This document shows, piece after piece, positions 35,284 through 63,934 of a DNA stretch of 64,000 nucleotides. Below the pieces are notes generated by a model. It was not told the origin of the DNA, ran no database searches, and worked only from the letters and a program-made list of their open reading frames with translations. This stretch comes from an uncultured Bacteroidales bacterium (lineage in GTDB: Bacteria > Bacteroidota > Bacteroidia > Bacteroidales > Bacteroidaceae): positions 1 to 64,000 of the forward strand of contig CADCBO010000003.1 in NCBI GenBank assembly GCA_902799685.1, written 5' to 3'. Made by a program: the position numbers and the translations under genes. Every line of letters starts with the position of its first letter. The stretch's first letter is position 1.

Positions 35284-36012
35284 ATGAAATATGCATTGGT
35301 AACAGGTGGTTCAAGAGGCCTTGGCCGCGCGGTGTGCATAAGATTGGCAGGGCAGGGTTATCCTGTTCTCATTAACTATAAGTCCAATTCTGATGCTGCA
35401 CTTGAGACCAAGCGGCTCGTGGAGGAGGCCGGCGGTCAGGCCGAGCTTCTGCCGTTCGATGTCTCTGTACAGCAAGAGGTGGAGACTGCTATAGACAGCT
35501 GGCAGGATGCCCACAAGGATGATTACATAGCCGTGCTGGTAAACAACGCAGGGATTCGTCGAGACAACCTGATGATATTTATGCAAGACGAAGACTGGAA
35601 CAGTGTCCTAAATACAAACCTGAACAGTTTCTTCTATCTTACACGCCGTCTGCTCAAGAACATGCTTTCCAAACGATGGGGCAGGATAGTGAACATGGCT
35701 TCGCTTTCCGGCATAAAGGGCCTGCCTGGTCAGACAAACTATTCGGCCGCAAAGGCAGCTCTTATCGGAGCCACCAAGGCTCTGGCTCAGGAGGTTGCCG
35801 CCCGTAAGGTTACCGTCAACGCGGTGGCTCCGGGATTCATTGCCACAGATATGACTAAGGAACTGCCAGAGGATGAACTTAAGAAAATGATTCCGGTAGG
35901 ACGTTTCGGCAGCCCCGAAGAGGTTGCCGCAACTGTAGGTTTTCTGGCATCCGAAGAAGCCTCGTACATAACAGGTGAGGTGATTTCAGTAAACGGTGGC
36001 CTTTATACATGA
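35284..36012 (+). CDS. 3-oxoacyl-ACP reductase, SDR family (FabG-like)
   Basis: This enzyme would reduce the beta-keto group after each chain extension, using NADPH. The 242-residue product has TGGSRGLGRA for the cofactor, NNAG, a catalytic Ser in NMASLSG and NYSAAKAAL (Tyr/Lys), and a C-terminal GEVISVNGG. The ATG at 35284 is chosen over a TTG three codons upstream. It is the first gene of the cluster and plays the role of ApeQ in known aryl-polyene clusters. The next gene starts 7 bases after it. Confidence 0.92.
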   Translation: MKYALVTGGSRGLGRAVCIRLAGQGYPVLINYKSNSDAALETKRLVEEAGGQAELLPFDVSVQQEVETAIDSWQDAHKDDYIAVLVNNAGIRRDNLMIFMQDEDWNSVLNTNLNSFFYLTRRLLKNMLSKRWGRIVNMASLSGIKGLPGQTNYSAAKAALIGATKALAQEVAARKVTVNAVAPGFIATDMTKELPEDELKKMIPVGRFGSPEEVAATVGFLASEEASYITGEVISVNGGLYT

Positions 36013-36019
36013 TTGGAAT

Positions 36020-37240
36020 ATGGGAAGAGTTGTAATTACGGGAATGGGAATCTGGGGATGCCTGGGGCAGAATCTTGACCAGGTGCGTGAATCCCTTTTT
36101 GCAGGAAAATCAGGAATAGGCACAGAGCCCATACGTAAGGAGTACGGTTACCGCTCCATGCTTACCGGCATAGTACCTAAACCCGTTTTGAAAGGAGTGC
36201 TTGACCGTCGCACGCGCGCCGGAATGAGCGAGGAGGCCGAATACGCCTATATGGCATCATCCGAGGCATTCCGCGGAGCAGGCATCGATGATGACTACCT
36301 GCTGAATAATGAGGTGGGTGTGATATTCGGTAATGACTCCAGCGCGGAGCCGGTCATTGAGACGGCCCGTATCATGAGTGAGTACCGTGATTCCGCCATG
36401 TGCGGTTCTGGACTGATATTCCAGTCCATGAACTCGACGGTGAACATGAACATGAGCACCATATTCCATCTGCGTGGCATAAACTTTACCGTGAGCGCAG
36501 CATGTGCAAGCGGTTCACATGCCATAGGTCTGGGATTCATGATGATACAGCAGGGCCTGCAGGATATGGTCCTTTGCGGTGGAGCGCAGGAGACCAACCA
36601 CATGTCCATGGCATCGTTCGATGCGCTTTCGGCATTCTCCATCCGTCATGATGAGCCAACCAGGGCATCGCGTCCGTTTGACCGTGACCGTGACGGGCTG
36701 GTGCCCAGCGGCGGTGCCGCAGCCGTGGTGCTTGAGGATTATGACCATGCCGTAAAGCGTGGTGCCACCATCCTGGCCGAGGTACTTGGCTACGGATTCT
36801 CATCGAACGGTACTGGAGGCATATCGCAGCCCAATTCCGATGCATCATTCCTGGCTATGACCCGCGCTCTGGATAGAGCCGGTCTGCAGCCTGATGACAT
36901 TGACTATATAAACGCTCACGCCACATCAACCCCTCAGGGCGATATGTATGAGGCTGTGGCTCTGGCACGTCTGTTTGAGGGACGCAAGGCATTGATAAGT
37001 TCCACCAAGTCCATGACAGGACACGAATGCTGGATGGCCGGTGCAAGCGAGATTGTCTATTCCACAATCATGCTCAATAACGGTTTCGTAGCCCCCAACA
37101 TAAATTTTGAGAATCCCGATGAGCAGTCGGCCAAGCTGAATATCGCAGCTGAGACCAAGCAGACTGAGCTAAGGACCATACTGTCAAATAGCTTTGGTTT
37201 TGGAGGAACCAACAGCGCACTTGTAATCAGAAAGATATGA
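36020..37240 (+). CDS. beta-ketoacyl-ACP synthase (FabF-like), KS1
   Basis: The enzyme would condense malonyl-ACP with the growing chain. The 406-residue product has a complete Cys-His-His triad: C162 in SAACASGS, H300 in NAHATST and H335 in TGHECWMAG. The C-terminal NSFGFGGTNS is normal. Start at 36020 (MGRVVITGMGIWG); the in-frame start at 35996 overlaps fabG and adds a non-homologous leader. The last four bases overlap the methyltransferase gene (ATGA). It is one of three complete KS in the cluster. Confidence 0.93.
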   Translation: MGRVVITGMGIWGCLGQNLDQVRESLFAGKSGIGTEPIRKEYGYRSMLTGIVPKPVLKGVLDRRTRAGMSEEAEYAYMASSEAFRGAGIDDDYLLNNEVGVIFGNDSSAEPVIETARIMSEYRDSAMCGSGLIFQSMNSTVNMNMSTIFHLRGINFTVSAACASGSHAIGLGFMMIQQGLQDMVLCGGAQETNHMSMASFDALSAFSIRHDEPTRASRPFDRDRDGLVPSGGAAAVVLEDYDHAVKRGATILAEVLGYGFSSNGTGGISQPNSDASFLAMTRALDRAGLQPDDIDYINAHATSTPQGDMYEAVALARLFEGRKALISSTKSMTGHECWMAGASEIVYSTIMLNNGFVAPNINFENPDEQSAKLNIAAETKQTELRTILSNSFGFGGTNSALVIRKI

Positions 37241-38337
37241 ATCTGTCACCAGCCTTGAAGGAGGCATACACCAAGGAGCACCTGAGCGCCCGTGACGCAC
37301 AGCGTCTGGCGGAGTTCATCGCATGGGGCCCCATAGTTTTCCAGACATCACGTCTGATGGTCAAGTTCGGAATACTGGACCTGTTGCGTGACAATATTGA
37401 CGGACTAACACAGCAGGAGATAGCCGATAAGACCGGTCTGTCACTTTATGCTGTCAAGGTACTTACTGAAGGTTCTTTGTCAATAGGAACAGTGCTGCTG
37501 GATCCGGATACGGACCGTTTCAGCCTGTCCAAGACCGGCTGGTTCCTGCTGACTGACCCCGCCACACGTGCCAATATGGACTTTAACCATGACGTTAATT
37601 ATGAGGGCTGGTTCAAGCTGGAGGAGTCACTCCTGGAGGGTCGTCCCGCAGGTCTGGAGCACTTTGGCAGCTGGCCTACGGTTTATGAAGGCCTGTCACA
37701 ACTGCCGCCTCAGGTGCAGAAGAGCTGGTTCGGATTTGACCATTTTTATTCAGACCACTCGTTCGATGAGGCCCTGAAGATAGTGTTTGACGGAGGCCGG
37801 ACTGAATCACTTGTGGATGTGGGCGGAAACACCGGCCGTTGGGCATTGCGCTGCGTGGATTACAATGACAAGGTCAAGGTGACTATAATGGATCTGCCGC
37901 AGCAGCTGGAAATGATGCGCGCCCAGACCGCAGGCAAAAAGGGTTCCGACCGCATAGAGGGATTCGGCATAAACCTGCTTGACCGCAGCGCCAAGTTCCC
38001 ACAGGGCCGTCATTTCGATGCCATCTGGATGAGCCAGTTCCTGGACTGCTTTGCCGAAGATGAGATCCTGAGCATACTTACCCGTGCCACAGCAGCAATG
38101 GACAAGGAGACGCGCCTTTACATAATGGAGACATTCTGGGACCGCCAGCGTTTTGAGCCGGGAGCATTGTGCCTTACCATGACCAGCCTTTACTTTACTG
38201 CCATTGCAAACGGTAACAGCAAGATGTACCACTCGGAGTGTATGGAGCGTCTGGTGGAGCAGGCCGGCATGAAGGTGGAGCGCATACATGACAATCTGGG
38301 GCAAGGCCACAGCATCATGGTATGCAAACTTAAATAG
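37237..38337 (+). CDS. SAM-dependent O-methyltransferase
   Basis: The 366-residue product has an N-terminal winged-helix dimerisation domain (GLTQQEIADKTGLSLYAVKV) and a C-terminal SAM-binding domain with LVDVGGNTGRWALR (about 193-206) and IMDLPQQLEMM, the layout of plant-type and polyketide O-methyltransferases. In aryl-polyene and related clusters such enzymes methylate the aryl hydroxyl. The catalytic base is not certain. It overlaps KS1 by four bases and is 35 bases before the ACP gene. Confidence 0.87.
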   Translation: MNLSPALKEAYTKEHLSARDAQRLAEFIAWGPIVFQTSRLMVKFGILDLLRDNIDGLTQQEIADKTGLSLYAVKVLTEGSLSIGTVLLDPDTDRFSLSKTGWFLLTDPATRANMDFNHDVNYEGWFKLEESLLEGRPAGLEHFGSWPTVYEGLSQLPPQVQKSWFGFDHFYSDHSFDEALKIVFDGGRTESLVDVGGNTGRWALRCVDYNDKVKVTIMDLPQQLEMMRAQTAGKKGSDRIEGFGINLLDRSAKFPQGRHFDAIWMSQFLDCFAEDEILSILTRATAAMDKETRLYIMETFWDRQRFEPGALCLTMTSLYFTAIANGNSKMYHSECMERLVEQAGMKVERIHDNLGQGHSIMVCKLK

Positions 38338-38372: not shown

Positions 38373-38615
38373 ATGGAAAGAAGTGAAATTGAAGCCAAGG
38401 TCCGCAAGTTCATGATTGAGGACCTGGAGATTGACGAGGAGAAGATAACCCCCGATGCCCATCTTATGAAGGACATGGGAATAGACAGTCTTGATTTCAT
38501 AGACATCGTAGTTATAGTGGAGAAGACCTTCGGCGTCAAGATCAAGAGTGAGGAGATGGCCGGGGTTGACACCTTCAGCAAGTTCTGTGATTATCTGGAA
38601 AAGAAGATAGGCTGA
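38373..38615 (+). CDS. acyl carrier protein, ACP1
   Basis: The 80-residue product is acidic with the phosphopantetheine site at S39 in DMGIDSLDF, and a normal four-helix pattern. It would carry the growing acyl chain between the cluster KS, reductase and dehydratase enzymes. No phosphopantetheinyl transferase is seen in the cluster, so a housekeeping enzyme probably activates it. The next gene starts two bases after its stop, at a TTG. Confidence 0.93.
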   Translation: MERSEIEAKVRKFMIEDLEIDEEKITPDAHLMKDMGIDSLDFIDIVVIVEKTFGVKIKSEEMAGVDTFSKFCDYLEKKIG

Positions 38616-38616: not shown

Positions 38617-39513
38617 TTGGCAAGGCAAGAGGGAAAACCTGTGGAGTGGAAAGGCCGTACTGACGGCCTGCCGTGGATGATACGCTCGCTTGTGGCAGTC
38701 ATGAGGGTGCTGGACCGCAGGGCCATCTATCTGGTTATGGCGCTGATAGTCCCTTTCTACATGATATTCAACCACAAAGGTTATAAGGCAATCTACAGGT
38801 TCTTCCGCCAGAGGTTAGGACTGGGGCCCTTGAAATCCTTCCTTAAGGTCTATGCCAACCATTTCCGGTTCGGGCAGGTGATAGTTGACCGTTACGCCGC
38901 GTTTGCCGGCAAGAGGTTCCGGTTTGCTTTTGACGGCAATGACATGTTCCTTGCCATGCTCAATGAACCGGGAGGGTTTGTCCAGCTGAGCTCCCACATT
39001 GGGAACTACGAGATGGTGGGGTACAGCCTTACATCGGCCACCAAGAAGATTAACGGCCTGTTCTATGGAGGAGAATCGGAGGTGATGATGGAATTCAGGC
39101 GCAAGATACTGAGCATGCACAATATAGGACTGATAGAGGTGAACGGCAGCATGGAGCATATTTTCCAGATGAATGCGGCCATAGACCGTGGCGAGATAGT
39201 CAGTATGACGGGTGACCGTATGCTTGGCTCTCCCAAGTCATTCCGTTGCCAGTTCATGGGTGCCGAAGCAAACTTTCCCATGGGACCGTTTGCGCTTGCC
39301 GTGCAGAAGGATGTGCCTATAGTGGCAGTGTTCTGCATGCGCGGCAAATGGGGCGTCTATAACGTCTATGTGCGAAAGGTTACGGCTGCACCGGGACTGC
39401 CGCCCAGGGCATCCATGCAGGATATGGCTCAGAAGTTCGCGGCAGAACTGGAGAGTATTGTGCGCCTGTATCCAACACAGTGGTTCAACTATTATGATTT
39501 CTGGAACGCCTGA
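38617..39513 (+). CDS. LpxL/HtrB-type lipid acyltransferase
   Basis: This 298-residue membrane-associated protein has the HX4E motif of the LpxL/HtrB acyltransferases (SSHIGNYE, H127 and E132) and a membrane helix at about 42-60. The start is a TTG at 38617. It is kept because the residues after it (EWKGRT) match the conserved WKG start of the family and the next Met is well inside. In related clusters such an enzyme moves the finished chain from ACP to a lipid or the next building block. It would act at the inner membrane. Confidence 0.85.
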   Translation: MARQEGKPVEWKGRTDGLPWMIRSLVAVMRVLDRRAIYLVMALIVPFYMIFNHKGYKAIYRFFRQRLGLGPLKSFLKVYANHFRFGQVIVDRYAAFAGKRFRFAFDGNDMFLAMLNEPGGFVQLSSHIGNYEMVGYSLTSATKKINGLFYGGESEVMMEFRRKILSMHNIGLIEVNGSMEHIFQMNAAIDRGEIVSMTGDRMLGSPKSFRCQFMGAEANFPMGPFALAVQKDVPIVAVFCMRGKWGVYNVYVRKVTAAPGLPPRASMQDMAQKFAAELESIVRLYPTQWFNYYDFWNA

Positions 39514-39514
39514 T

Positions 39515-39949
39515 ATGTGTGTTTTCTCCAAATACGGTATTCTTGAGCTGATTCCGCAGCGTCCTCCGTTCGTGATGGTGGATAGCCTGATATACTGCGA
39601 TTTGAGCATAACCAGGACTCAGCTGGAAGTCAGGGCTGACAATATCTTCAATGACGGAGGCCGTCTGTCAACCGCAGGAATATGCGAGAACATAGCGCAG
39701 ACCTGCGCCGCACGCCTGGGCTATCTGAGTCTGGCATCGGGTCAGGCGGTAAAGCTGGGATACATAGGAGCCATAAGCAACATGCAGGTCTATAGGACAC
39801 CTGTCACGGGCGAGACTCTGGTTACTGAGATTAAAGTGCTGCAGGAGGTGTTCAACATAACTCTTGTACACGCTGTGGTAAAATGCGGTGATGAACTGAT
39901 AGCTGAGACAGACCTCAAGATTGCCTTGGGCGATGATGCGGCAAAATAA
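39515..39949 (+). CDS. hot-dog 3-hydroxyacyl-ACP dehydratase-like protein (ApeP-type), DH1
   Basis: The 144-residue product begins at the ATG at 39515, two bases after the preceding stop. It has the LIPQRPPFVMVDSL start typical of FabZ/ApeP-like hot-dog proteins, with Gln instead of the usual His in HRxPF. The GHFPG active-site loop of FabZ is replaced by IFNDGGRLSTAG, so the catalytic His is absent, while ENIAQTCAA keeps the acid position. The ApeP subgroup of aryl-polyene clusters has a similar non-FabZ loop, so the enzyme may dehydrate with different residues or partner with DH2. Confidence 0.8.
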   Translation: MCVFSKYGILELIPQRPPFVMVDSLIYCDLSITRTQLEVRADNIFNDGGRLSTAGICENIAQTCAARLGYLSLASGQAVKLGYIGAISNMQVYRTPVTGETLVTEIKVLQEVFNITLVHAVVKCGDELIAETDLKIALGDDAAK

Positions 39950-39958: not shown

Positions 39959-40375
39959 ATGAAAGAGCTTAAAGAGACAATACCGTTCCGCGTAAGGTTC
40001 AGTGAGGTTGACTCAATGAACATAGTATGGCACGGTTCGTACCCCCTCTATTTTGAGGATGCCCGCGAGGCTTTCGGCCGCAAGTACGGGTTGGGGTATT
40101 ATGACATATTTGACAATGGTTATTATGCGCCTCTTGTGGAACTGTCGTTCAAATACAAGAAGCCCATAACATATGGCATGAAACCAGAGATTACGATCAT
40201 GTATCGTCCTACCGATTCGGCCAAGATAGTGTTTGATTATGAGATAAGGGACTCTGCAAACGGTGAGTTGCTGGCCGAGGGCCATTCCGTCCAGGTATTC
40301 ATGGACCGCAACTACCAGTTAGTATGGGCTAACCCGGAATTCTACGAGGAGTGGAAAAAGAGATGGCAAGAGTGA
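39959..40375 (+). CDS. 4HBT-type acyl thioesterase
   Basis: The 138-residue hot-dog protein has RFSEVDSMNIVWHGSYPLYF, with the conserved Asp of the 4-hydroxybenzoyl-CoA thioesterase family, and YFEDAREAF after it. It would hydrolyse acyl-ACP or acyl-CoA and may release or edit chains. It overlaps the start of KS2 by 13 bases, so expression is coupled. Such a thioesterase is a regular member of aryl-polyene clusters. Confidence 0.88.
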   Translation: MKELKETIPFRVRFSEVDSMNIVWHGSYPLYFEDAREAFGRKYGLGYYDIFDNGYYAPLVELSFKYKKPITYGMKPEITIMYRPTDSAKIVFDYEIRDSANGELLAEGHSVQVFMDRNYQLVWANPEFYEEWKKRWQE

Positions 40376-41508
40376 TACAGTGCATAGCGGACAACGTGGT
40401 TTCGCCGCTTGGCAGGACATCGATGGAAAACTACGTCAATGTCAAGGCCGGGTGCAGCGGGCTGGCACGTTTTGAGGAGATGGACAGGGTCAGCTCCCCG
40501 TTCATGCTGTCTCGCATAGACCGCTATGTGATGGATGAACTATGCATCGGACTTGATATTCCTGACGGCAAATACACGTTCTTTGAGAAAATGCTGCTGA
40601 CCAGTAGCATACAGGCCGTAAGAAAGGCGGGCATAGACCCGTCATCGGACAGGGTGCTGTTCATAATTTCTACCACAAAGGGGAATGTATCGCTGTTGGA
40701 CAGGGATGTAAAGGGATTCCCGCAGGAGAGGGTGCTGCTTGGCAAGTCGGCAAGCATGGTTTCACGCTATTTCGGTAATCCTAATGCACCTGTAGTGGTT
40801 TGCAATGCCTGCATATCGGGCGTATGTGCCCAGATTGAGGCCATGCGTGCTTTGCAGAGCGGCCGTTATGACTATGCCGTTGTAACTGGAGCCGATGAGC
40901 AGTCGCCGTTCATTATTTCGGGATTCCTCTCATTCAAGGCGCTGACAGATACCCCTTGCCGTCCGTTTGACAAGGACCGTACAGGGCTTAACTTGGGTGA
41001 GTGCGCCGCTACCGTGGTGCTTAAGGCATCGGACGCACCGGCTTGCGGCTGGGTGCTTGAGGGCGGAGCCATACGTAATGACGCCAACCATATTTCAGGC
41101 CCGTCCAGAACAGGCGAGGGGAGTTATCTGGCCCTTATGGAGGTCTTGCGCAAATGCGGCAGGGAGGGACTGGCTTTTGTGAACGTGCATGGCACGGCAA
41201 CAGCCTACAATGATGAGATGGAATCCATAGCCCTTTACCGTGCAGGACTGATTGACGTACCTGTTACGGGATTGAAAGGCTATTACGGACATACTATGGG
41301 TGCGGCGGGAATAATGGAGAGCATACTTTCCATGTATGCCGTCCAGGACGGAACGGTGCTGGCCACACGGGGTTATGCTGAGCAGGGAGTGACCTATCCG
41401 GTGAATGTTAGCCCTGAAAACAGGCCTGCCCACGGAAACAGGTTCATAAAGCTGCTGTCAGGTTTCGGCGGATGCAACGCCGCCCTCAGTTATGCTTATT
41501 ACAGTTAA
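40363..41508 (+). CDS. beta-ketoacyl-ACP synthase, KS2
   Basis: The 381-residue product has a complete triad: C150 in NACISGVC, H276 in VHGTAT and H310 in YGHTMGAAG. It is more distant from FabF than KS1 and KS3, with a short N-terminal region. The ATG at 40363 is used; an in-frame GTG at 40351 is less likely. It is similar to the ApeC/ApeO group of aryl-polyene clusters by position. The stop and the next ATG overlap by one base. Confidence 0.9.
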   Translation: MARVIQCIADNVVSPLGRTSMENYVNVKAGCSGLARFEEMDRVSSPFMLSRIDRYVMDELCIGLDIPDGKYTFFEKMLLTSSIQAVRKAGIDPSSDRVLFIISTTKGNVSLLDRDVKGFPQERVLLGKSASMVSRYFGNPNAPVVVCNACISGVCAQIEAMRALQSGRYDYAVVTGADEQSPFIISGFLSFKALTDTPCRPFDKDRTGLNLGECAATVVLKASDAPACGWVLEGGAIRNDANHISGPSRTGEGSYLALMEVLRKCGREGLAFVNVHGTATAYNDEMESIALYRAGLIDVPVTGLKGYYGHTMGAAGIMESILSMYAVQDGTVLATRGYAEQGVTYPVNVSPENRPAHGNRFIKLLSGFGGCNAALSYAYYS

Positions 41509-42152
41509 TGACGGATATGGAAAAGGAGAGGAATCTGAAATATACTGTCATTACTGACAAGGGAGTAACAGTATGCGGACGTGTGCTAGAACATAATCAC
41601 ACAGGTTCGGCCATGCTTACAGAGATATATCGCGCCCAACTGGGTGACTGGCCCAAGTTCTTCAAGATGGACACCCTGAGCAAGGTGGGCTATCTGGCAT
41701 CGGAACTGTTGCTCAAGGAGCTGGGCGAGCGCAGGCTGGAGGGCGAAGAATATGCTTCGGACCGCGCCATAGTGCTGTTCGGTACGACGGCGTCACTTTG
41801 CGCAGACCGAAACTATCAGGAAACCATTCAGGACAGTGATAATTACTATCCCAGTCCGGCCCTGTTCGTATATACGCTGCCCAATATTGTGACAGGCGAG
41901 ATAGCCATCCGGAATCATTACCGCGGAGAGACGTCGTTTTATGTGCTGGACGGATATGATACCGGCAGCATGGCGTTTCATTTGCAGTGCGCTTTCCAGG
42001 ATGATGTGACGGAGAGTCTCCTTGCAGGATGGGTTGACAGCACGGACAACGATGATTTCCGCTGTTTCTTCACGCTTATGGACAGGGCGGATGCATCGGA
42101 CCTGAAGGGGCTTGAGAATGAATTGAAAGGAATAATGGATAACTTAAAATGA
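41508..42152 (+). CDS. truncated ketosynthase-like protein without catalytic Cys
   Basis: The 214-residue product resembles only the N-terminal lobe of a thiolase-fold ketosynthase: IVLFGTTASLCADRNYQETI and SPALFVYTLPNIVTGEIAIR match the KS dimer-interface and substrate region. At the nucleophile elbow it reads SFYVLDGYDTG, with no Cys, and no later His motifs exist. Proteins of this type annotated as 3-oxoacyl-ACP synthase occur in Bacteroidota aryl-polyene clusters. It is probably structural or chain-length-setting, as partner of KS2 or KS3. Function is inferred. Confidence 0.75.
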   Translation: MTDMEKERNLKYTVITDKGVTVCGRVLEHNHTGSAMLTEIYRAQLGDWPKFFKMDTLSKVGYLASELLLKELGERRLEGEEYASDRAIVLFGTTASLCADRNYQETIQDSDNYYPSPALFVYTLPNIVTGEIAIRNHYRGETSFYVLDGYDTGSMAFHLQCAFQDDVTESLLAGWVDSTDNDDFRCFFTLMDRADASDLKGLENELKGIMDNLK

Positions 42153-42161: not shown

Positions 42162-42419
42162 ATGGAAGAGATGATTCTTAAACTGAAGCAGGAGATTATT
42201 GAGGTGCTTAACCTTGAGGATGTAAAACCCGAGGATATTGACAATGACGCTCCTCTGTTCGGTGAGGGTCTGGGACTGGATTCTATTGATGCTCTTGAGC
42301 TTATAGTTCTCATGGAGAAGAACTACGGCATCAAGCTGCAGGATCCTGCCAAGGGCAAGGAGATATTCAAGTCCATCAACGTGATGGCTGATTACATCCA
42401 GAAAAACCGTACCCGCTGA
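42162..42419 (+). CDS. acyl carrier protein, ACP2
   Basis: The 85-residue product has the phosphopantetheine Ser at S41 in GLGLDSIDALEL and a normal ACP fold. It is the second ACP, as in aryl-polyene clusters that use two carriers (ApeE/ApeF). Its stop overlaps the KS3 start by one base. Confidence 0.94.
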   Translation: MEEMILKLKQEIIEVLNLEDVKPEDIDNDAPLFGEGLGLDSIDALELIVLMEKNYGIKLQDPAKGKEIFKSINVMADYIQKNRTR

Positions 42420-43621: not shown

Positions 43622-43625
43622 AGCA

Positions 43626-44651: not shown

Positions 44652-44992
44652 TACCGCTATCTCTTTTACAAAGTTTCACGCTGGCTACAGGCCAGATGAT
44701 GCTTAAGCTGGCTCTCAAGAAAATGGGCCACTATACCGGCATCGGCCAGTTCCTGGCAGGAGAGTGGACCAACTGGTGGTGGTACGCCTGCGGAACTTTC
44801 ATGGGCGGAGCCATGCTCTTGTGGATGTATATACTCAAGCACTTCCCCTTCAGCATAGCATACCCCCTGAGTTGCCTCAGTTTCCTTTTCGGAATGTTCG
44901 GTGCCTGGATATTTCTGGGTGAATCCATACCGCCCATCCGTTGGGTAGGGGTGGTCCTGATACTGATAGGTGCCTACTTCATAGCCAAGTAA
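44636..44992 (+). CDS. small EamA/ArnE-F-like transporter subunit, copy 1
   Basis: The 118-residue product has four membrane helices (LSLLQSFTLATGQMMLKLAL; YILKHFPFSIAYPLSCLSF; VGVVLILIGAYFIA) and resembles half-size EamA proteins such as ArnE/ArnF, which flip undecaprenyl-linked lipids. A clear paralogue lies at the end of the cluster (63578-63934), so the two may act as a heterodimer. It overlaps the KS-like gene by 16 bases. The substrate is unknown; a lipid-linked intermediate is plausible. Confidence 0.82.
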   Translation: MWRTLIPLSLLQSFTLATGQMMLKLALKKMGHYTGIGQFLAGEWTNWWWYACGTFMGGAMLLWMYILKHFPFSIAYPLSCLSFLFGMFGAWIFLGESIPPIRWVGVVLILIGAYFIAK

Positions 44993-56014: not shown

Positions 56015-57322
56015 ATGAAACCTTTCAAACTTAAACTGATATACCCCAAGTGGCAGAAGCTGAAAGGGCAGACCACTTTCAACCTGCCTCCTCACGGACC
56101 GGTGGCTTTTGCCGCCACATTGCCAGAATGGGTTGATGTGACCTTTACCGATGAGAACGTAGAGGCCATTGACTTTGAAGAGGAGTGCGACGGCGTTGCT
56201 CTGTCAATGATGCTCAGCACCCAGGTCAAACGTGGATGGGAGATAGCCGATGAGTACCATAAGCGCGGCAAGCTGGTTATGGCCGGAGGCATATCCACAA
56301 TGCTTCATGCCGAGGATATGGTAAAGCATGTGGACTGCGTGTTCCTGGGTGAATCGGAAGGGCGTATGGAGGAGGTTATGACGGACTGGGTGAACGGCAA
56401 GCTGCGCAAGTTCTACAACTACATGGGCAATATGCCGCCAATTGAATCGGTAGGCCCGTGCCGCAGGGACTTGTATAAGCGCGAGCTCTATAACCACAAG
56501 GGCGTACAGATGGTGGACTTGTTCCACGCCAGCCGTGGATGCCGGTTCAGCTGCTATCCCTGTGCCGTTTCATATCTGGGAGGCCGCAAGTTCCGTCCGC
56601 GCCCCATTGATAAAGTGGTTGAGGATATGGCTGCCATTGAGAACAACCGTCTGTTCATAGTGGATAATTCACTTGCACAGAACAAGGAGTGGGAGAAAGA
56701 ACTCTTTACCGCCATTGCCCCGCTCAAGAAAAAATGGATAAGCCATACCATTGAGGATGACCCCGAGGTGCTGGACCTGGCTGCAAAGGCAGGTGCATGG
56801 TATGTGTATCAGGCCGTGTATGATACATCGGACTACATAAAGGAGCGCGTTAAGCGTTACCATGACTACGGAATAGGCGTGGAGGGCACGATCCTGCTGG
56901 GACTTGACAACCAGACAGAGGATGACATAAAGCGCTTGATTGATTTTCTGGGTGAGATTGATCTGGATCTAGCCGAATTCACCGTAATGACGCCGTTCCC
57001 GCATACCAAGGGTTACGATGACCTGCTGCGTCAGGGACGTATCTTTGACTTTGACTGGAACCATTACAACGCCGGTCAGGTGGTGTTCCAGCCCAAGCAC
57101 ATGAGCCCGGAGCGGCTTCAGGAGCTGTATGACTATGCCTGGAAGAGCTTCTATGCCGATGAGAGCCAGGAGCAGAAGATGTTCCGTCTGTTCTGCAACG
57201 TGGCTCTGCGTGAGATGAATGAGGGTACATACCGTCCGCGTGACCGCCGATTGGCCAACAAGTCATTCGGAAAGGATGTGGTAAGAAACATAAAAACCGT
57301 AAATCATGAAAGTATCTCCTGA
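56015..57322 (+). CDS. B12-binding-type radical SAM enzyme
   Basis: The 435-residue product has an N-terminal B12-binding-like domain (about 1-140) and a radical SAM core with C176-x3-C180-x2-C183 (SRGCRFSCYPCAVS), the three Cys that hold the [4Fe-4S] cluster. The DxHxxG cobalamin motif is not obvious; the region reads VALSMMLSTQVKRGWEIADE, so cobalamin use is uncertain. Related enzymes methylate or cyclise unreactive carbons. It overlaps the next gene by 17 bases. Confidence 0.85.
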   Translation: MKPFKLKLIYPKWQKLKGQTTFNLPPHGPVAFAATLPEWVDVTFTDENVEAIDFEEECDGVALSMMLSTQVKRGWEIADEYHKRGKLVMAGGISTMLHAEDMVKHVDCVFLGESEGRMEEVMTDWVNGKLRKFYNYMGNMPPIESVGPCRRDLYKRELYNHKGVQMVDLFHASRGCRFSCYPCAVSYLGGRKFRPRPIDKVVEDMAAIENNRLFIVDNSLAQNKEWEKELFTAIAPLKKKWISHTIEDDPEVLDLAAKAGAWYVYQAVYDTSDYIKERVKRYHDYGIGVEGTILLGLDNQTEDDIKRLIDFLGEIDLDLAEFTVMTPFPHTKGYDDLLRQGRIFDFDWNHYNAGQVVFQPKHMSPERLQELYDYAWKSFYADESQEQKMFRLFCNVALREMNEGTYRPRDRRLANKSFGKDVVRNIKTVNHESIS

Positions 57323-57668
57323 TTATTACGACGAGATATTCCAGTATCTGGGCGAATGGGATATGCCGTCGGCCTGCGGACTTAAGATCCGTACGGTTGA
57401 AGGCAAGACTTACGTTATCGTTACAGAGCTGTATCAGGACAATCCCGGAACATCGGTAACATACGCCGGGCAGAAGCTGGCCGACCAGATATGTGAGGCT
57501 AAGGGCTTGAACCTGAACGATATTGTTTATGTGGAATGCAATCCCAATACAAACTCAAAACTCTCTTTCTATGATGAGGAGTATTTTGTGGTTGACTTTG
57601 ATGCCGAACCTGCCCATAAGTACCGGCAGTTAGGCAGGGATGAGATAATGAAACTTCTAGGTAAGTGA
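57306..57668 (+). CDS. hypothetical protein coupled to the radical SAM gene
   Basis: I do not recognise this 120-residue protein. It has no signal peptide or membrane helix. It shows an alpha/beta pattern (LKIRTVEGKTYVIVTELYQD; YAGQKLADQICEAKGL; IVYVECNPNTNSKLSFYDEE) with a single Cys in ECNPN. The 17-base overlap with the radical SAM gene and one-base overlap with the hydrolase gene imply that it is made together with them. It may be an accessory subunit. Confidence 0.72.
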   Translation: MKVSPDYYDEIFQYLGEWDMPSACGLKIRTVEGKTYVIVTELYQDNPGTSVTYAGQKLADQICEAKGLNLNDIVYVECNPNTNSKLSFYDEEYFVVDFDAEPAHKYRQLGRDEIMKLLGK

Positions 57669-58555
57669 TGCTGAGAAACCTTTTGCTCCTTATTCCATTA
57701 ATTATCATTCCATCAGTAAACAGCATGAAACCTTGGGCCAAAGATGACAGACGCGCAGAGGAGGTAATCATAACCCCGTACCTGGCTGACAACAGCAGCA
57801 ACGCCCCCGCCGTCATAGTCTGTCCTGGTGGAAGCTACTGCTGGCTTGACGTTAAGGGAGAGGGTATAGAAGTTGCCGAATGGCTCAGGGATAACGGAAT
57901 AAACGCTTTCCTGCTTCAGTACAGGACAGCGGGATTCGGTGCATACTTTACCCGATACCGTCTGGTGGCACGTGGTAACCGTCATCCTGATATGATCTGC
58001 GATGTGCAGCGGGCCATACGGTTTGTGCGTGAGAAAGCAGACAGTCTGAGCATAGATCCTGGCCGTGTGGGCGTGATGGGCTTTTCGGCAGGAGGGCATC
58101 TGGCCTTGTGTGCCGCATGTTTCAGCGGCACTGACTATACAGACCTGCCGCAGAAGGGAGAGTCAGACATATCCCTGAGACCGGATTTTGTGGCTGCCAT
58201 ATATCCTGTGGTTACAATGAAGGGAGAATATGTGCACAAGCGTTCCCGCAGGGGGCTTCTGGGCGAGTGGGGCAAGTACAACAAGGAGTTGAGGGAGCAG
58301 ATGTCCATAGAGGAGCATATCCCGAATGACTGCCCGCCGGTGTTCATGATAAACTGCAAGGATGACCCTGTGGTAGATTGGCACAACTCCGTCATGCTGG
58401 ACCAGGCGCTCACCAAAGCAGGCGTGGAGCATAAGTACATTCAGTATGAGACAGGCAAGCACGGTTTTGGAGTGAGTGAGGTCTATGGCAGCGAGGAGTC
58501 ACAGAAATGGAAATATGAGTTCCTGGAGTGGCTAAAACCATATATGAACAAATGA
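57668..58555 (+). CDS. alpha/beta hydrolase (esterase/lipase-like)
   Basis: The 295-residue product has a hydrophobic N-terminus (RNLLLLIPLIIIPSV), then VIVCPGGSYCWLDVKGEGIE with the oxyanion HGG-like PGG, GFSAGGH with the nucleophile S141, and a C-terminal DDPVVDWHNS plus TGKHGFG giving Asp and His. It belongs to the BD-FAE/esterase group and is probably periplasmic. It may cleave an ester in the finished product or in a precursor. The ATG at 57668 overlaps the upstream stop. Confidence 0.85.
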   Translation: MLRNLLLLIPLIIIPSVNSMKPWAKDDRRAEEVIITPYLADNSSNAPAVIVCPGGSYCWLDVKGEGIEVAEWLRDNGINAFLLQYRTAGFGAYFTRYRLVARGNRHPDMICDVQRAIRFVREKADSLSIDPGRVGVMGFSAGGHLALCAACFSGTDYTDLPQKGESDISLRPDFVAAIYPVVTMKGEYVHKRSRRGLLGEWGKYNKELREQMSIEEHIPNDCPPVFMINCKDDPVVDWHNSVMLDQALTKAGVEHKYIQYETGKHGFGVSEVYGSEESQKWKYEFLEWLKPYMNK

Positions 58556-59856
58556 TTAACAGGATGAAAGACATAGAGTTTGAGTCACCTGAACGGATCA
58601 AGGCGTTTCAGGAGGACCTGTTGCGCAAACATCTGGTGTATCTGCGTGACAACTCGCCGTATTACAGGAGGCTGTTTGACAGCTATGGCATAAACACTGA
58701 ACGCATCAGGCACATAGAAGACCTTACGCGCATTCCGTTTACCGAAAAGAAGGACCTGCAGCTATACAACGATGACTTCTGCTGCGTTCCCAAAAAGAGG
58801 ATAATAGACTATATCACCACATCGGGAACACTGGGCGACCCGGTGCTGTTTGGATGTACCGAGAAAGACCTGCAGCGTCTGGCCTACAACGAGAAGAAAT
58901 CATTCATGTGTGCCGGTCTTACCGATGAGAGCGTGCTGCAGCTCATGACCACGCTCGATAAGCGTTTCATGGCCGGAATGGCATATTTCCTGGGATTGCG
59001 TGAGATGGGTGCCGGAGTGATACGCGTGGGTAACGGAATACCTGAGCTGCAGTGGGACACCATACGCCGTTTCCATCCCGATTCAATAATGTGTGTGCCC
59101 TCATTCATTCTCAAACTGATTGAGTATGCCGAGGCTCACGATATAGATTACCGCTCCAGCAGTATACGCCGCATCATAGGCATAGGTGAGGGTTTGCGTG
59201 ACCAGAACTTTGAGCTTAACCTGCTGGGCCGCCAGATTCATGACCGGTGGCCGGAGGTGCAGCTGTTTGCCACTTATTCATCGACAGAGATGGGGGCCAC
59301 ATTCAGCGAGTGCGAGTACGGAATTGGCGGTCATGTGCATCCGGAGCTTATCATAGTGGAGATTATAGGCGATGACGGGATGCCGGTGGTCGACGGTCAG
59401 CCCGGTGAGGTGGTGGTTACCACACTTGGCGTGGAGGGCATGCCTCTGCTGCGTTTCCGTACCGGCGACATAGCCTGCAAGCATGTTGAACAATGCCGCT
59501 GCGGCCGATGGTCATACAGGCTGTCGCCGCTGCTGGGCCGCAAGAACAACATGATAAAGCTTAAGGGCACCACGCTCTATCCGCCTGCCATAAACGACGT
59601 GCTGGACAACACGGACTATGTGGAGAACTATGTGGTCATAGTACGCAACAGCGCGGCCGGAACAGACGATGTGCTGGTTAAGGTGGGACTGAAGCATGAC
59701 CCGGGATTTGATGCCGTAAAGGAGCTGAAAGACCGTTTCCGCTCACGCATACGCGTGGCTCCGGAGATAGAGATATGCGCTGTAGATGAGATTCACGCCA
59801 TAAACTATCCGCCTACAGGCCGCAAGCCGGTAAAATTCATTGACCAAAGAAAGTAA
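58552..59856 (+). CDS. PaaK-like AMP-forming acyl/aryl ligase
   Basis: The 434-residue product is in the phenylacetate-CoA ligase (PaaK) group: YLRDNSPYYRRLFDSYGI, IDYITTSGTLGDPVLFGC (P-loop), ATYSSTEMGATFSECEYG and RFRTGDIACK, with the C-terminal LKGTTLYPPAINDVLD. These ligases activate aryl acids to the CoA or ACP thioester. It could load an aromatic starter unit. The ATG at 58552 overlaps the hydrolase stop (ATGA); an in-frame GTG at 58528 is less likely. Confidence 0.88.
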   Translation: MINRMKDIEFESPERIKAFQEDLLRKHLVYLRDNSPYYRRLFDSYGINTERIRHIEDLTRIPFTEKKDLQLYNDDFCCVPKKRIIDYITTSGTLGDPVLFGCTEKDLQRLAYNEKKSFMCAGLTDESVLQLMTTLDKRFMAGMAYFLGLREMGAGVIRVGNGIPELQWDTIRRFHPDSIMCVPSFILKLIEYAEAHDIDYRSSSIRRIIGIGEGLRDQNFELNLLGRQIHDRWPEVQLFATYSSTEMGATFSECEYGIGGHVHPELIIVEIIGDDGMPVVDGQPGEVVVTTLGVEGMPLLRFRTGDIACKHVEQCRCGRWSYRLSPLLGRKNNMIKLKGTTLYPPAINDVLDNTDYVENYVVIVRNSAAGTDDVLVKVGLKHDPGFDAVKELKDRFRSRIRVAPEIEICAVDEIHAINYPPTGRKPVKFIDQRK

Positions 59857-59861: not shown

Positions 59862-60986
59862 ATGACCGACGAGCATAAATTTGACGATATCCGTCCGTAC
59901 CGTGACGATGAGATTCCGGCAGCAATGCAGCGCATTGTATCGGACCCGTACTTTCCGCAGGTGGCACAGTATGTCTATCCTGACCGCAACGTACAGGAGG
60001 TGAGGGATATCATGCTGAGTTGCAGGAATATATATGAGTTCCAGACAACCGTGATGAAGCAGGTGAACGAGCAGGTCATAGCCCGTACTACCGATGGTCT
60101 CACATTCGGCGGCGTGGAGCGGCTTGACCCATCAAAGCGGTATCTCTTTATCAGCAACCACAGGGATATTGTGCTGGATTCGTGCCTGCTCATGTACATC
60201 CTGCATACCAACGGCCACAAGATAGGCGAGATTACCTTCGGCTCAAACCTTATGAAAGGCCAGATGGTGATTGACATAGGCAAGAGCAACAAGATGTTCA
60301 AGGTGGAGCGTGGCGGTAACCCAAGGGAGCTTTACACCACATCGGTGCATCTTTCGGAATACATCCGATACGCCATTACTGAAAAGAAGGAGTCTGTATG
60401 GATTGCGCAGCGCAACGGCCGCACCAAGGACGGCATGGACCGTACAGACCAGGGACTGATAAAGATGCTCAGCATGAGCGGCGGCAAGGACCGCGTCAAG
60501 GCTCTTGCTGAACTGAATATTGCGCCCGTATCGGTATCGTACGAGTGGGAGTCATGTGATATACTGAAAGCCCTTGAGCTCTATGCGTCACGTGACGGCA
60601 AGCCATATGTAAAGAAACCGGGCGAGGACCTTAACAGCATCCTTACGGGAATAACGCAGCCCAAGGGGCGTGTGCATATAGAGATTTGTGAGCCATTGAC
60701 CGCCAGTGACCTGAACGCCATTCCTACGGATTATGTGGATGCACAGTTCCGTCATGCTGTGGCGGAGCTTATGGACAGCCGTATATGCGGCGGTTACCGT
60801 TTGTTCCCCAATGCATATGTGGCACATGACATTCGCTCGGGCAACAACCGGTACGCAGACCGTTATACTGACAGCCAGCGTGACGCATTTACGGCCCGCC
60901 TGCATGAGTTGGACAAATACGGTACGGATCCGGCCCTGCGTGACATATTCCTGGGAATATACGCCAATCCTGTTGACAGCCATTAA
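59862..60986 (+). CDS. HX4D acyltransferase (glycerol-phosphate acyltransferase-like)
   Basis: The 374-residue product has ISNHRDIVLDSCLLMYIL (HX4D) in a PlsB/PlsC-type acyltransferase core, followed by VERGGNPRELYTT and SVWIAQRNGRTKDGMDRTDQ. It lacks clear membrane helices and may bind the membrane surface. It is the third acyltransferase of the cluster, with the LpxL-like protein and the MMPL fusion, which fits final attachment of the chain to a lipid. It is 5 bases after the ligase gene. Confidence 0.85.
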   Translation: MTDEHKFDDIRPYRDDEIPAAMQRIVSDPYFPQVAQYVYPDRNVQEVRDIMLSCRNIYEFQTTVMKQVNEQVIARTTDGLTFGGVERLDPSKRYLFISNHRDIVLDSCLLMYILHTNGHKIGEITFGSNLMKGQMVIDIGKSNKMFKVERGGNPRELYTTSVHLSEYIRYAITEKKESVWIAQRNGRTKDGMDRTDQGLIKMLSMSGGKDRVKALAELNIAPVSVSYEWESCDILKALELYASRDGKPYVKKPGEDLNSILTGITQPKGRVHIEICEPLTASDLNAIPTDYVDAQFRHAVAELMDSRICGGYRLFPNAYVAHDIRSGNNRYADRYTDSQRDAFTARLHELDKYGTDPALRDIFLGIYANPVDSH

Positions 60987-61022
60987 ACCAATTGGTACAG
61001 ATTGCATCTAATAATCAGGAAT

Positions 61023-61826
61023 ATGTGTATGGCTAATCAGGGAATATTGAGGTTATGGTGCAGCATGCTGGCTCTAAGCCTGTGTGCAGTGCTTCATGCT
61101 CAGTTTGAGGAGCCTATCATAATAGACCATAATTACCAGCACTACGAGTATCCTATACAGGAGGGCTCTCCGCTTGAATTCGGAAGGCGGCCATCTGGTA
61201 CAGGATCGGTGCTGTTCGAGACCAATCCTACGGGAGCAAAGGTCTTTATAAATGACATATTCCAGGGTGAGACCCCTCTGCTTATAGACAATGTGCCCGA
61301 CGGTACATACAGCGCCCGTTTTGAAATGGAGGGCTATCTGAACCATTACGCATCGTTCGATGTGGCAGCCACACTGCAGTCACACGTAACAGCAGGGCTG
61401 CAACCCAGACCCAATTACTTCTTTGACCGTCGTGAGCTCTATACCACACTGATTTATGAGTATAGCGACATGAACGCCGGCAGCTGGGGAGTAGGCAACT
61501 CCTGGGGCGGATATTTCAAGAATATCAATCTGGAGCAGACCACAGTAGTGCATATTGGAGTGCTCAATACCGTATCGTTCGAGGGCTCATTAGGCTACGG
61601 CTTTATCCTGGGCAGGCTTAACCGCTGCCGCCTGACACCGCAGATAGGATATTCGGGCGTATGGTTTGACGATGTGGCCAATGCTGTAAGCAACTGGCGC
61701 GGCTATCTGCGCGGCGCCCTGAACTTTAAGTGCGCATTCACGCAGCAATACGCTTTCTCTGCCACACTGCTCTATGACAAGACCGGATTCGGATTCAGGG
61801 CAGGCGTGCTGTTCTATGTAAACTGA
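61023..61826 (+). CDS. PEGA-domain outer-membrane protein
   Basis: The 267-residue product has a signal peptide (ILRLWCSMLALSLCAVLHAQ) and a PEGA domain (GSVLFETNPTGAKVFINDIF, then PDGTYSARFEMEGY). The C-terminal ~130 residues alternate in aromatic strands (YTTLIYEYSDMNAGSWGVGN; YLRGALNFKCAFTQQYAFSA) and end in FRAGVLFYVN, as in a small outer-membrane barrel. The ATG at 61023 is preferred over one at 61002, which is before a weaker leader. It could anchor or display the product. Confidence 0.78.
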   Translation: MCMANQGILRLWCSMLALSLCAVLHAQFEEPIIIDHNYQHYEYPIQEGSPLEFGRRPSGTGSVLFETNPTGAKVFINDIFQGETPLLIDNVPDGTYSARFEMEGYLNHYASFDVAATLQSHVTAGLQPRPNYFFDRRELYTTLIYEYSDMNAGSWGVGNSWGGYFKNINLEQTTVVHIGVLNTVSFEGSLGYGFILGRLNRCRLTPQIGYSGVWFDDVANAVSNWRGYLRGALNFKCAFTQQYAFSATLLYDKTGFGFRAGVLFYVN

Positions 61827-61830: not shown

Positions 61831-63576
61831 ATGCGTGCTTGTGGTAACGATGAGATTCAGGTGGGAGTGCTTCCATCGCAGGAAAAGATATGGCACCGTT
61901 ATTATGATGAAAAGGAATTGAATCCTGAACTGTCAGATGACAGTATGTTTAAGGCCATATGTCATGCCGGTTATGAGAACAGGACCGCATGCATGTTCTA
62001 TGGCAAATCATTTACATACCGAAAACTGTATGAAGGGATAGAACTTGTTGCCAAAGCATTTTTGCAGAATGGCATAGGCAAGGGTGATGTGGTGATGCTC
62101 ATGCTGCCCACGCTCCCGGAGTCACTTTATTGTTTTTATGCCCTGAACAGGATTGGCGCTATCTCAAATCTGGTTGATGTCCGTATAGCACCAAGACAGT
62201 TGGTGGAGATATCGCATAAGACTAAGCCCAAGATGATTTTCCTTATGGATTTCTATCTGGAACGGGCAGATTCCATAAAGGACTTGACAGGCATTGAGAA
62301 GATTGTTGTACTCAGGGGGTGTGAATCTTTTCCGTTTGCCGTTTCAATGTACAGATTCAGCGAGCTGTTCAACGGCAGGAGCAGGATTGTCCGTAGGGAC
62401 AGCAGATATTCATTCTGGCAGGAGTTCTTAAGGTCGGGCAAGGATTGTAGTATGCCTCTTGATGCGGATGTCCATGCCGATGACATTGCAGCCATATATC
62501 AGACAAGCGGAACAACCGGATTCCCCAAGAGTGCCGTACACACCAATTTCAACCTGAACAACTCATCCACGATGAAGCATTTCCACATGAATGAGTTTAA
62601 TCCGGGTGATAAAGTACTCTCCATATTGCCCTTATTCACCCTGTTCGGATTTGTGTTTGACATACATATGCCACTTAGATATGGCATGACACTGGTTATA
62701 GTCCCTCTGTTCAAAAAGAAGAGTCTTGCCGACCTGATATTGCGTCATAAGCCCAACCATATATTCAGTGTGCCTTCACAATGGGAATCTGTGGTGGGTA
62801 ACAAAAGGATCAAGTGTGACCTGTCATTCATAAAGACCATATTCGTGGCAGGTGAAGTGCTTGACAAGGCTTTGAGGCTGAATATAAACAGCCTGCTCCA
62901 TGAAGGTGGCAGCAAGGCGGAGATTTGTTCTGACTACGGTATGACAGAGGCCGGCGGAACTATATCGTTCGTGAATCCTGCCTATACATCGCATGATGCC
63001 TGTGGAAACGGTTATTCGGGAATTCCCATGCCTTTGTGCAACATATGTATCTATGACAATGAAGCCTTAAAAGAGATGGATTATAACCGGCCGGGTGAGA
63101 TTTGCGTTCAGGTTCCTTTTGCGGTAAAAGGATATTACAATGACCCTGAAGCTACCGATAATCTGTTCTGCACGCATCCTGACGGCAGTGTGTGGCTGCA
63201 TACAGGAGATATCGGCTATCTGACAGAGAAAGGTCATCTCTATGTCATTGACCGCAAGAAACGGATGATTGTGCGTTTTGACGGCAGCAAGGTGTTCCCC
63301 ATCGAACTTGAATCAGTAATAAAAGAGGTCAGGGGTGTAGCAGAATGCTCCGTAGTCCCTGCGCCAGACCCTGTCCATCTTCAGGGTAAGGTTCCGTTTG
63401 CATTCGTAGTGACAGAGGAACCAGATATTCAGGAAAGGGTAGAGAATGACATCAAGCGTATCTGCAGTAGCAGACTCCCGGTCTATCTGCAGCCATACGG
63501 AATAAAGTTCATTGGGGAGATTCCTCGTAACTCAATGGGCAAGGCTGATTATCTGAAACTTATAGAAATGATATAA
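61831..63576 (+). CDS. class I AMP-forming acyl-CoA/acyl-ACP ligase
   Basis: The 581-residue adenylating enzyme has the P-loop IYQTSGTTGFPKSAVHTNF, SDYGMTEAGG, WLHTGDIGYLTEKGHLYVID and the C-terminal catalytic Lys region (RNSMGKADY). This group activates fatty or aryl acids as AMP esters for transfer to CoA or ACP. It is the second ligase of the cluster, with a different fold subgroup from the PaaK-like one, so the two probably load different acids. It lies one base from the last EamA gene. Confidence 0.88.
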   Translation: MRACGNDEIQVGVLPSQEKIWHRYYDEKELNPELSDDSMFKAICHAGYENRTACMFYGKSFTYRKLYEGIELVAKAFLQNGIGKGDVVMLMLPTLPESLYCFYALNRIGAISNLVDVRIAPRQLVEISHKTKPKMIFLMDFYLERADSIKDLTGIEKIVVLRGCESFPFAVSMYRFSELFNGRSRIVRRDSRYSFWQEFLRSGKDCSMPLDADVHADDIAAIYQTSGTTGFPKSAVHTNFNLNNSSTMKHFHMNEFNPGDKVLSILPLFTLFGFVFDIHMPLRYGMTLVIVPLFKKKSLADLILRHKPNHIFSVPSQWESVVGNKRIKCDLSFIKTIFVAGEVLDKALRLNINSLLHEGGSKAEICSDYGMTEAGGTISFVNPAYTSHDACGNGYSGIPMPLCNICIYDNEALKEMDYNRPGEICVQVPFAVKGYYNDPEATDNLFCTHPDGSVWLHTGDIGYLTEKGHLYVIDRKKRMIVRFDGSKVFPIELESVIKEVRGVAECSVVPAPDPVHLQGKVPFAFVVTEEPDIQERVENDIKRICSSRLPVYLQPYGIKFIGEIPRNSMGKADYLKLIEMI

Positions 63577-63577
63577 T

Positions 63578-63934
63578 ATGTGGAAAATCATACCTCTATC
63601 GCTGTTGCAGAGCGTGCTTCTTACCGCAGGCCAGCTCTTTTTCAAGCTGGCACTTGACAAGGCCGCCCCGTATGAGGGTATCCGTAAACTTTGGACATGT
63701 GTAAAGAGAGACTGGTATCTGTGGCATGGCTGCTGGATCTCACTTACCTTAGCCACATTGCTGTGGGCATATATCTTGCGCCATTTTCCGTTCAGTGTGG
63801 CCTATCCGCTAAGCTGCATAAGCTTCCTGCTGGGCATCATTGCCGGTGCTGTTTTCCTTAACGAACAGCTCTCTGCCAATAAGATTATCGGCATAGCGGT
63901 AATGATGATTGGTGCATTCATCATAGCTAAATGA
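63578..63934 (+). CDS. small EamA/ArnE-F-like transporter subunit, copy 2
   Basis: The 118-residue, four-helix product is a paralogue of the one at 44636, with the same start (MWKIIPLSLLQSVLLTAGQL) and shared LRHFPFSVAYPLSC and GAFIIAK. Equal length and close similarity suggest an ArnE/ArnF-like pair. It closes the run of overlapping cluster genes. The next ATG is 47 bases on. Confidence 0.83.
   Translation: MWKIIPLSLLQSVLLTAGQLFFKLALDKAAPYEGIRKLWTCVKRDWYLWHGCWISLTLATLLWAYILRHFPFSVAYPLSCISFLLGIIAGAVFLNEQLSANKIIGIAVMMIGAFIIAK

Follow-up and report, generated by a model that had tools for sequence, protein, structure and literature searches.

How a polyene pathway starts when the gene for its first enzyme is missing is the question raised by a gene cluster of an uncultured Bacteroidales bacterium (Bacteroidaceae; assembly GCA_902799685.1). 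The cluster lies in the 64,000-nucleotide stretch analyzed here (the window), which is the start of a 272-kb contig (CADCBO010000003.1) from a genome that is ~86% complete (G000). Between positions 35275 and 63934 we found 31 genes, all on the plus strand, with open reading frames (ORFs) chosen by us; the original prediction had counted 29 co-directional genes, and our count confirms the direction but gives a different number. Since FlxB, FlxJ, LolA2 and FlxY each exceed the curated NCBIfam cut-offs, the cluster is classified by its proteins as a flexirubin-type polyene cluster. In Chitinophaga pinensis, according to the text of PMC3992019, FlxA converts tyrosine to 4-coumarate and FlxY then activates this acid. 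We propose, with a probability of about 0.5, that the window encodes a flexirubin-like outer-membrane pigment pathway that has lost the ammonia-lyase FlxA and still starts from a 4-coumarate-like acid, which would be taken from outside the cell.

The absence of an ammonia-lyase, already noted for the window by the original prediction, extends to the whole genome, in which the lyase family (PF00221) has no match. The prediction had also proposed to look beyond 64 kb, and no lyase was recognized there when the ORFs of the next 18 kb were read by eye. PF00221 likewise had no match in any of the eight other same-genus genomes, the five other carriers of the cluster included, compared with matches in 35 of the 151 genomes of a family sample; G050, G070, and G088 of this genus are without the radical SAM gene. 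In all six lyase-bearing Bacteroidales clusters with both genes in the retrieved stretch (G640, G722, G646, G772, G032, and G819), the lyase stands directly before FlxB. At this spot the window has a tRNA-Thr gene and two small ORFs, flanked by a GH67 gene on one side and by FlxB on the other, and a search for remnants gave no trace of a lyase at the site before FlxB; in G024, GH67 is ~250 bases from FlxB. The position of the lyase is not fixed, because L056, L058, and L068 carry it downstream and on the opposite strand.

The radical SAM protein of the cluster was used to search the GTDB collection, which gave relatives in 332 stretches; 80 of them were kept as loci (L), and the lyase family was tested in the genomes of 50 of these 80 relatives. 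Several genomes stand under two labels (L023 is G147, L025 is G024, L031 is G133, L032 is G104, L036 is G119, and L063 is G722), and the counts of the different surveys are not additive. A lyase was present in 25 of the 50 tested genomes. The 25 without it comprise all 19 sampled members of the window's clade (L021-L039) together with L043, L062, L077, L086, L091, and L099. Because none of the 19 clade genomes has a lyase, the gap in the window is no assembly accident. When three cluster proteins were combined in a quick tree (85 rows, of which 55 were labelled for presence or absence of the lyase), the window and L021-L039 formed a group of 20 rows with an SH-aLRT support of 100, none of them with a lyase. 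FlxY was seen in 19 of the 20 rows, and the contig of L038 stops just after the radical SAM gene. The lyase label changes five times over the tree, at least three times by well-supported branches. Judged from these genomes, the window's clade is one clear case in which the lyase was lost and FlxY kept; L043 and G715 also retain FlxY without a lyase.

In a phylum sample, FlxY exceeded its cut-off in 34 of 395 genomes, 32 of which have a PF00221 gene; flexirubin-type and HutH-type members of this family were told apart by bit score, a split of our own. The lyase lies at most 35 kb from FlxY in 30 of these 32 genomes and elsewhere in G167 and G417, and FlxY without PF00221 occurs only in the window's genome and in G005. 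The latter (L151-L153) is a complete genome with neither lyase nor radical SAM gene; the ethanolamine ammonia-lyase genes EutB and EutC lie upstream of its FlxB. In an order sample of 295 genomes, 59 of the 64 with FlxY also have a lyase (the sole lyase of G686 scores HutH-like). The other five are G000, G558, G661, G715, and G792; FlxY is located near contig ends in G661 and G792, so that a missing lyase could be a gap, and no other cluster gene is found in the 20 kb around FlxY in G558.

The original prediction had regarded a PaaK-like ligase as present instead of the lyase. From its family match (679.8 bits, cut-off 520) this protein is FlxY, the usual second enzyme of the flexirubin pathway, which normally acts straight after the lyase and is no substitute for it. 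The column test used 55 lyase-associated FlxY proteins (27 from Bacteroidales and 28 from the phylum sample), with columns counted as conserved at 98% or more. The majority residue of the 19 clade proteins deviates at none of the 122 conserved columns, and at seven other positions the clade carries residues absent from the lyase-associated set. The median ratio of nonsynonymous to synonymous substitution rates (dN/dS) of FlxY is 0.048 (18 relatives), which indicates strong purifying selection, and the medians of other proteins are 0.032 for the radical SAM enzyme (18 relatives), 0.078 for the esterase (9), 0.102 for the family 2 glycosyltransferase (14), 0.141 for the second CrtI-like enzyme (16), and 0.144 for g28 (17). 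Exclusion of pairs whose dS was saturated, and of matches on the minus strand, left 9 to 18 of the 18 relatives, and the values are rough, as several dS are near saturation. Compared with the window's proteins, those of the clade have a mean identity of 91% (FlxY) and 95% (radical SAM enzyme), against 73% (MMPL), 63% (second CrtI-like enzyme), 73% (esterase), and 50% (LolA). As the conserved columns of FlxY are unchanged, a different starter acid, as originally predicted, is less likely than a different supply of the same acid; the acid has probably stayed the same and its supply changed. The genes of the cluster and its flanks are as follows.

31622-33721, plus strand: GH67 alpha-glucuronidase, acting on side chains of xylan, upstream of the cluster (Pfam PF07488, 492 bits; PF07477, 309 bits)
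35036-35109, minus strand: tRNA-Thr, directly before the first cluster gene (ARAGORN)
35284-36012 (ORF open from 35275), plus strand: g1, FlxB, 3-ketoacyl-acyl carrier protein (ACP) reductase (NF053542, 411.5 bits, cut-off 340)
35996-37240, plus strand: g2, ketosynthase 1 (PF00109/PF02801)
37237-38337, plus strand: g3, FlxJ-family methyltransferase (NF053543, 599.6 bits, cut-off 560)
38373-38615, plus strand: g4, ACP 1 (NCBIfam acyl carrier models, best 65.1 bits, all below cut-offs)
38617-39513, plus strand: g5, lysophospholipid/lipid A-type acyltransferase (PF03279, 57 bits)
39368-39949, plus strand: g6, FabZ-like dehydratase 1 (FabZ models, E 6e-8, below cut-off; no Pfam match); true start probably internal, near the g5 stop
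39959-40375, plus strand: g7, thioesterase (PF13279, 52.9 bits)
40351-41508, plus strand: g8, ketosynthase 2 (PF00109/PF02801)
41472-42152, plus strand: g9, ketosynthase-like partner protein (no Pfam or NCBIfam match), so called because ketosynthase 2 and the g9 counterpart are fused into a single ORF in G032 and G005
42162-42419, plus strand: g10, ACP 2 (NF006617, 88 bits, cut-off 70)
42419-43621, plus strand: g11, ketosynthase 3 (PF00109/PF02801)
43614-44651, plus strand: g12, ketosynthase-like protein (PF13723, 33.7 bits, cut-off 25)
44636-44992, plus strand: g13, EamA/ArnE-like membrane protein 1 (PF00892)
45006-48221, plus strand: g14-g17, cassette of HprK-like, signal-peptidase-like, and PqqD-like proteins and an ABC exporter
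48322-48948, plus strand: g18, LolA2, flexirubin-type carrier (NF053544, 158.5 bits, cut-off 125)
48932-49327, plus strand: g19, FabA/FabZ-like dehydratase 2 (PF07977)
49335-50075, plus strand: g20, family 2 glycosyltransferase (PF00535)
50068-53004, plus strand: g21, MMPL exporter with an acyltransferase fused at its end (PF03176, PF01553)
53005-54510, plus strand: g22, CrtI-like flavoenzyme 1 (PF01593; TIGR02733 below cut-off)
54518-56005, plus strand: g23, CrtI-like flavoenzyme 2 (PF01593; TIGR02733 below cut-off)
56015-57322, plus strand: g24, B12-binding/radical SAM enzyme, BchE/HpnJ-like (PF04055, 33.5 bits, cut-off 29.5; PF02310 below cut-off)
57306-57668, plus strand: g25, small protein of 120 aa that accompanies the radical SAM enzyme (no Pfam family; no clear fold match)
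57665-58555, plus strand: g26, secreted-looking esterase of the BD-FAE family (PF20434, 86.8 bits; nearest solved chain 6a6o)
58528-59856, plus strand: g27, FlxY, 4-coumarate-CoA ligase, PaaK-like (NF053551)
59862-60986, plus strand: g28, acyltransferase 3 (PF01553, 22.9 bits, just below the cut-off of 23)
61002-61826, plus strand: g29, PEGA-domain protein (PF08308), with a match in none of the 80 loci
61831-63576, plus strand: g30, second AMP ligase, long-chain acyl/aryl type (PF00501, 214 bits)
63578-63934, plus strand: g31, EamA/ArnE-like membrane protein 2 (PF00892)
Starting at 63981, after g31: GH43 gene (PF04616, 285 bits)

All components named in the original prediction are present, namely FabG, three ketosynthases, two ketosynthase-like proteins, two ACPs, two dehydratases, thioesterase, methyltransferase, LolA, family 2 glycosyltransferase, MMPL, and three acyltransferases (domains in g5, at the end of g21, and in g28), as well as the two CrtI-like enzymes, the radical SAM enzyme, the PaaK-like ligase, and the second AMP ligase. 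It had left g13, g14-g17, g25, g26, g29, and g31 unnamed. In g24, a CxxxCxxC motif was seen by eye, and the TIGR04013, HpnJ, and BchE models matched below their cut-offs; in g26, Ser-Asp-His residues were seen by eye in the alignment, and its N-terminus resembles a signal peptide by eye. The ACP 2 counterparts (42162-42419) of G024 and G133 share 98% identity with that of the window, well above the values of most cluster proteins.

An altogether different starter, such as phenylpropionate, phenylacetate, an indole acid, or a fatty acid, could be loaded by FlxY or by g30 and give a new polyene. In favour of this are the presence of g30 as a second AMP ligase and the report that C. pinensis FlxY, while favouring 4-coumarate, also accepts other arylacrylic and arylpropionic acids, 3-phenylpropionate and indole acids included (in the text of PMC3992019); moreover, related clusters without lyase and FlxY (G110 and L077) bear another ligase. 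The unaltered conserved columns of FlxY speak against it, as does FlxJ, which is 92-93% identical in G024 and G133, and g30 is unmatched in the clusters of these two genomes, both of them also lyase-free. A change of starter is unlikely in our view. The second ligase, originally placed among the genes found instead of the lyase, has a counterpart of 80% identity in L024 but is seldom seen elsewhere (8 of the 80 loci at half length or more); by its distribution it appears to be an add-on of the window's species and a few relatives.

FlxY is often absent from the retrieved stretch in the other lyase-free rows (L062, L077, L086, L091, L099, and G110); in L077, none lies within 10 kb of the radical SAM gene. 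In G110 and L077 (Caecibacteroides pullorum), a different AMP ligase of ~437 aa is found downstream of the third acyltransferase, with one further acyltransferase in between in L077, and the G110 cluster (L164, L165) is also without FlxJ. These six relatives may represent a second route of starter change.

The original prediction had further read the CrtI-like and radical SAM enzymes as signs of a different starter and tailoring, and the radical SAM enzyme and its companion g25 could in principle replace the lyase. Indeed, g24 and g25 are adjacent, all 80 loci have them together, and the dN/dS of g24 is low. Nevertheless, 25 of the 28 order-sample genomes with the radical SAM enzyme (28 of 295) also have a lyase, as have 25 of the 50 relatives tested, while G005 is without both genes. 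Replacement by this pair is thus largely refuted, and we give it hardly any weight. Since the radical SAM gene is kept in G110, with no lyase in the genome and neither FlxY nor FlxJ in the cluster, the enzyme probably acts on the chain or the lipid.

Across the 80 loci (L021-L100), the identity of the radical SAM protein stays at 85-100%, while outside the clade most neighbouring cluster proteins drop to ~30-60% and FlxY to 67-80%. Such identity points to unusually strong constraint or exchange. No open-licence paper was found with "flexirubin" and "radical SAM" together in its full text. The very conserved pair of a B12 radical SAM enzyme and a small protein is a regular component of polyene clusters in many gut Bacteroidales. 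The CrtI-like gene is no stand-in for the lyase either, because the first four lyase-bearing clusters examined (G032, G324, G162, and G401) contain one as well; it directly follows MMPL in G032 and G324, and a further, more distant CrtI-like gene is present in the clusters of G324 and G401.

The loss of the first gene and the insertion of the cassette g14-g17 might indicate that the cluster is decaying and makes nothing. This is very improbable given that all 31 genes are open in the window, that FlxY and the radical SAM enzyme have dN/dS values of 0.048 and 0.032 across the clade, and that G024 and G133 have the same gene order as the window. The cassette (45006-48221, with an HprK/ScmC-like gene first) sits between the EamA and LolA genes and looks like a set for peptide maturation and export, although neither a precursor gene nor one for a radical SAM enzyme was noticed among its members. 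No match to g14-g16 was found in the 80 loci or in 19 other clusters compared, and g17 had only generic, partial ABC matches in the clusters of G543, G324, and G401. The nearest relative, L024, has no room for these genes between the second ketosynthase-like gene and LolA.

With FlxY maintained, the starter could be made by the cell itself, through an enzyme unrelated to the known ammonia-lyases and encoded elsewhere in the genome. The intact FlxY and FlxJ, which keep a hydroxyaryl starter likely, are compatible with this, and a replacement would easily explain a clade-wide loss without visible decay. Against it, the HGD-D dehydratase (PF06050) was found in 0 of 9 genomes, and the chorismate lyase UbiC (PF04345), which bears on the chorismate-derived starter gene suggested by the original prediction, in 0 of 14. 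When all coding-strand ORFs from FlxB to the last acyltransferase of the G024 cluster were compared, no replacement gene emerged; each ORF is matched by a homologue in the cluster of the window and, except for the thioesterase, in that of the lyase-bearing G640, while no candidates were sought in the remainder of the genome. We consider an own enzyme rather unlikely. With the lyase gone, HGD-D and UbiC not found, and no replacement gene in the G024 cluster, uptake from outside is the simple reading that remains, and on these sequence data we would give it even odds at best.

Our best guess for the source is a hydroxycinnamate of the plant cell wall. Xylan genes flank the cluster, GH67 on one side and GH43 on the other, in the window, G024, G133, G147, and G104. 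GH67 is upstream in four of the five same-genus contigs examined, the fifth beginning too near the cluster. Of the 19 clade loci, 12 have a GH43 homologue within ~2.5 kb after the cluster, and none of 61 other loci (some of them short) has one. The BD-FAE family of g26 is one of bifunctional feruloyl and acetyl-xylan esterases. The nearest named records, labelled Bacteroidaceae or Bacteroidales, come from gut assemblies of yak, deer, reindeer, buffalo, and horse, and the bacterium presumably inhabits the gut of a plant-eating animal. Rumen microbes are described in PMC9695934 as liberating free p-coumarate from cell walls.

Several observations weigh against an external, plant-derived supply. 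GH43 adjoins the cluster in only those 12 of the 19 clade loci, and G005 is without a lyase, yet has neither this GH67 nor this GH43 near its cluster. The esterase g26 is also present in 24 of 27 labelled lyase-bearing loci or clusters, and lyase-bearing relatives likewise come from ruminant guts; because they share both features, neither the habitat nor g26 is specific to the loss of the lyase. Finally, an enzyme elsewhere in the genome could make 4-coumarate.

If the acid is indeed acquired from outside, FlxY would load 4-coumarate, or a close arylacrylate, most likely a plant hydroxycinnamate released from arabinoxylan, possibly with the help of g26. The set of ketosynthases, ketoreductase, and dehydratases would elongate it to a polyene, and FlxJ would methylate the ring. 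The thioesterase and the acyltransferases would then transfer the polyene to a lipid, probably not a dialkylresorcinol, and delivery to the outer membrane would fall to MMPL and LolA2. Tailoring of the polyene or its lipid would be the task of the CrtI-like and radical SAM enzymes, which would have no part in starter synthesis.

The vague expectation of a new product is thereby turned into a testable split, with the loading enzyme conserved and the supplier gone in a whole clade. Tentatively, and with the odds somewhat against it, the clade may have outsourced the first step of pigment synthesis and depend on hydroxycinnamates from the plant diet of its host, in which case pigmentation would both report and depend on fibre digestion. 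Should plant cell walls supply the acid, a pigment of the bacterial envelope would be directly diet-dependent, and genome-mined gut polyene clusters could not be read as self-sufficient.

As for the final product, the G324 cluster encodes DarB (NF053539, 672 bits) and an adjoining gene of 301 aa, taken as DarA by position only, which matches no family model. With this gene as the DarA query, no homologue was found in the window's genome or in five cluster-bearing genomes of the same genus; DarB was not searched in whole genomes. Clear homologues occur in G324, G162, G401, and G819; matches were obtained in six of 22 genomes, those in G110 and G722 being weak and partial and left uncounted. The query was also unmatched in the lyase-bearing G032, G640, G646, and G772, so its loss is not tied to that of the lyase. 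As the query is unmatched, a dialkylresorcinol ester is unlikely, and the product probably differs from a classical flexirubin ester, as far as gene content can tell.

According to the published texts, flexirubin-like clusters are known from five of six Bacteroidetes classes (PMC9248904), LolA2 is linked to flexirubin-like loci (PMC11885536), and a cluster of the gut bacterium Bacteroides xylanisolvens has been likened to that of C. pinensis (PMC12940132). Among the matches listed in the open-licence literature, no paper on lyase-free flexirubin clusters was found by title or abstract start. The E. coli cluster APE-Ec shares with the window the core of ketosynthases, ketoreductase, dehydratases, ACPs, and thioesterase, the acyltransferases, an RND-type exporter, a LolA-like carrier, and the absence of a lyase (text of PMC8253772). 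The same source predicts that its starter is 4-hydroxybenzoate, made by the chorismate lyase UbiC and loaded by ApeH, so that the premise of the original prediction, that aryl polyenes usually start from an ammonia-lyase product, was too broad. UbiC was not found here in the genomes searched, and the gene table of that source has no FlxY, CrtI-like, or radical SAM gene.

The C. pinensis flexirubin cluster (flxA-flxY) and the window have in common FlxB, FlxJ, FlxY, several ketosynthases, dehydratases, LolA, a glycosyltransferase, and an exporter. The window's genome differs in having no FlxA lyase and no homologue of the DarA query, and the gene list in the text of PMC3992019 includes neither its radical SAM gene, g25, and g26 nor its second CrtI-like gene, its second AMP ligase, and g14-g17. 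With the flexirubin-type cluster of G324, from the same class, the window shares the core order, a CrtI-like gene after MMPL, and FlxY at the end, the second, distant CrtI-like gene of G324 lying elsewhere in its cluster; G324 has a lyase, DarB, and, between CrtI and FlxY, a C45-family acyltransferase/hydrolase, whereas the window there has the radical SAM gene, g25, and the esterase. Apart from the lyase, which stands directly before FlxB in the lyase-bearing G640 and G722 and is missing from the window, these two clusters correspond to it in near-identical gene order, with counterparts of both CrtI-like enzymes, the radical SAM enzyme (88%), g25, the esterase, FlxY (77-80%), and g28.

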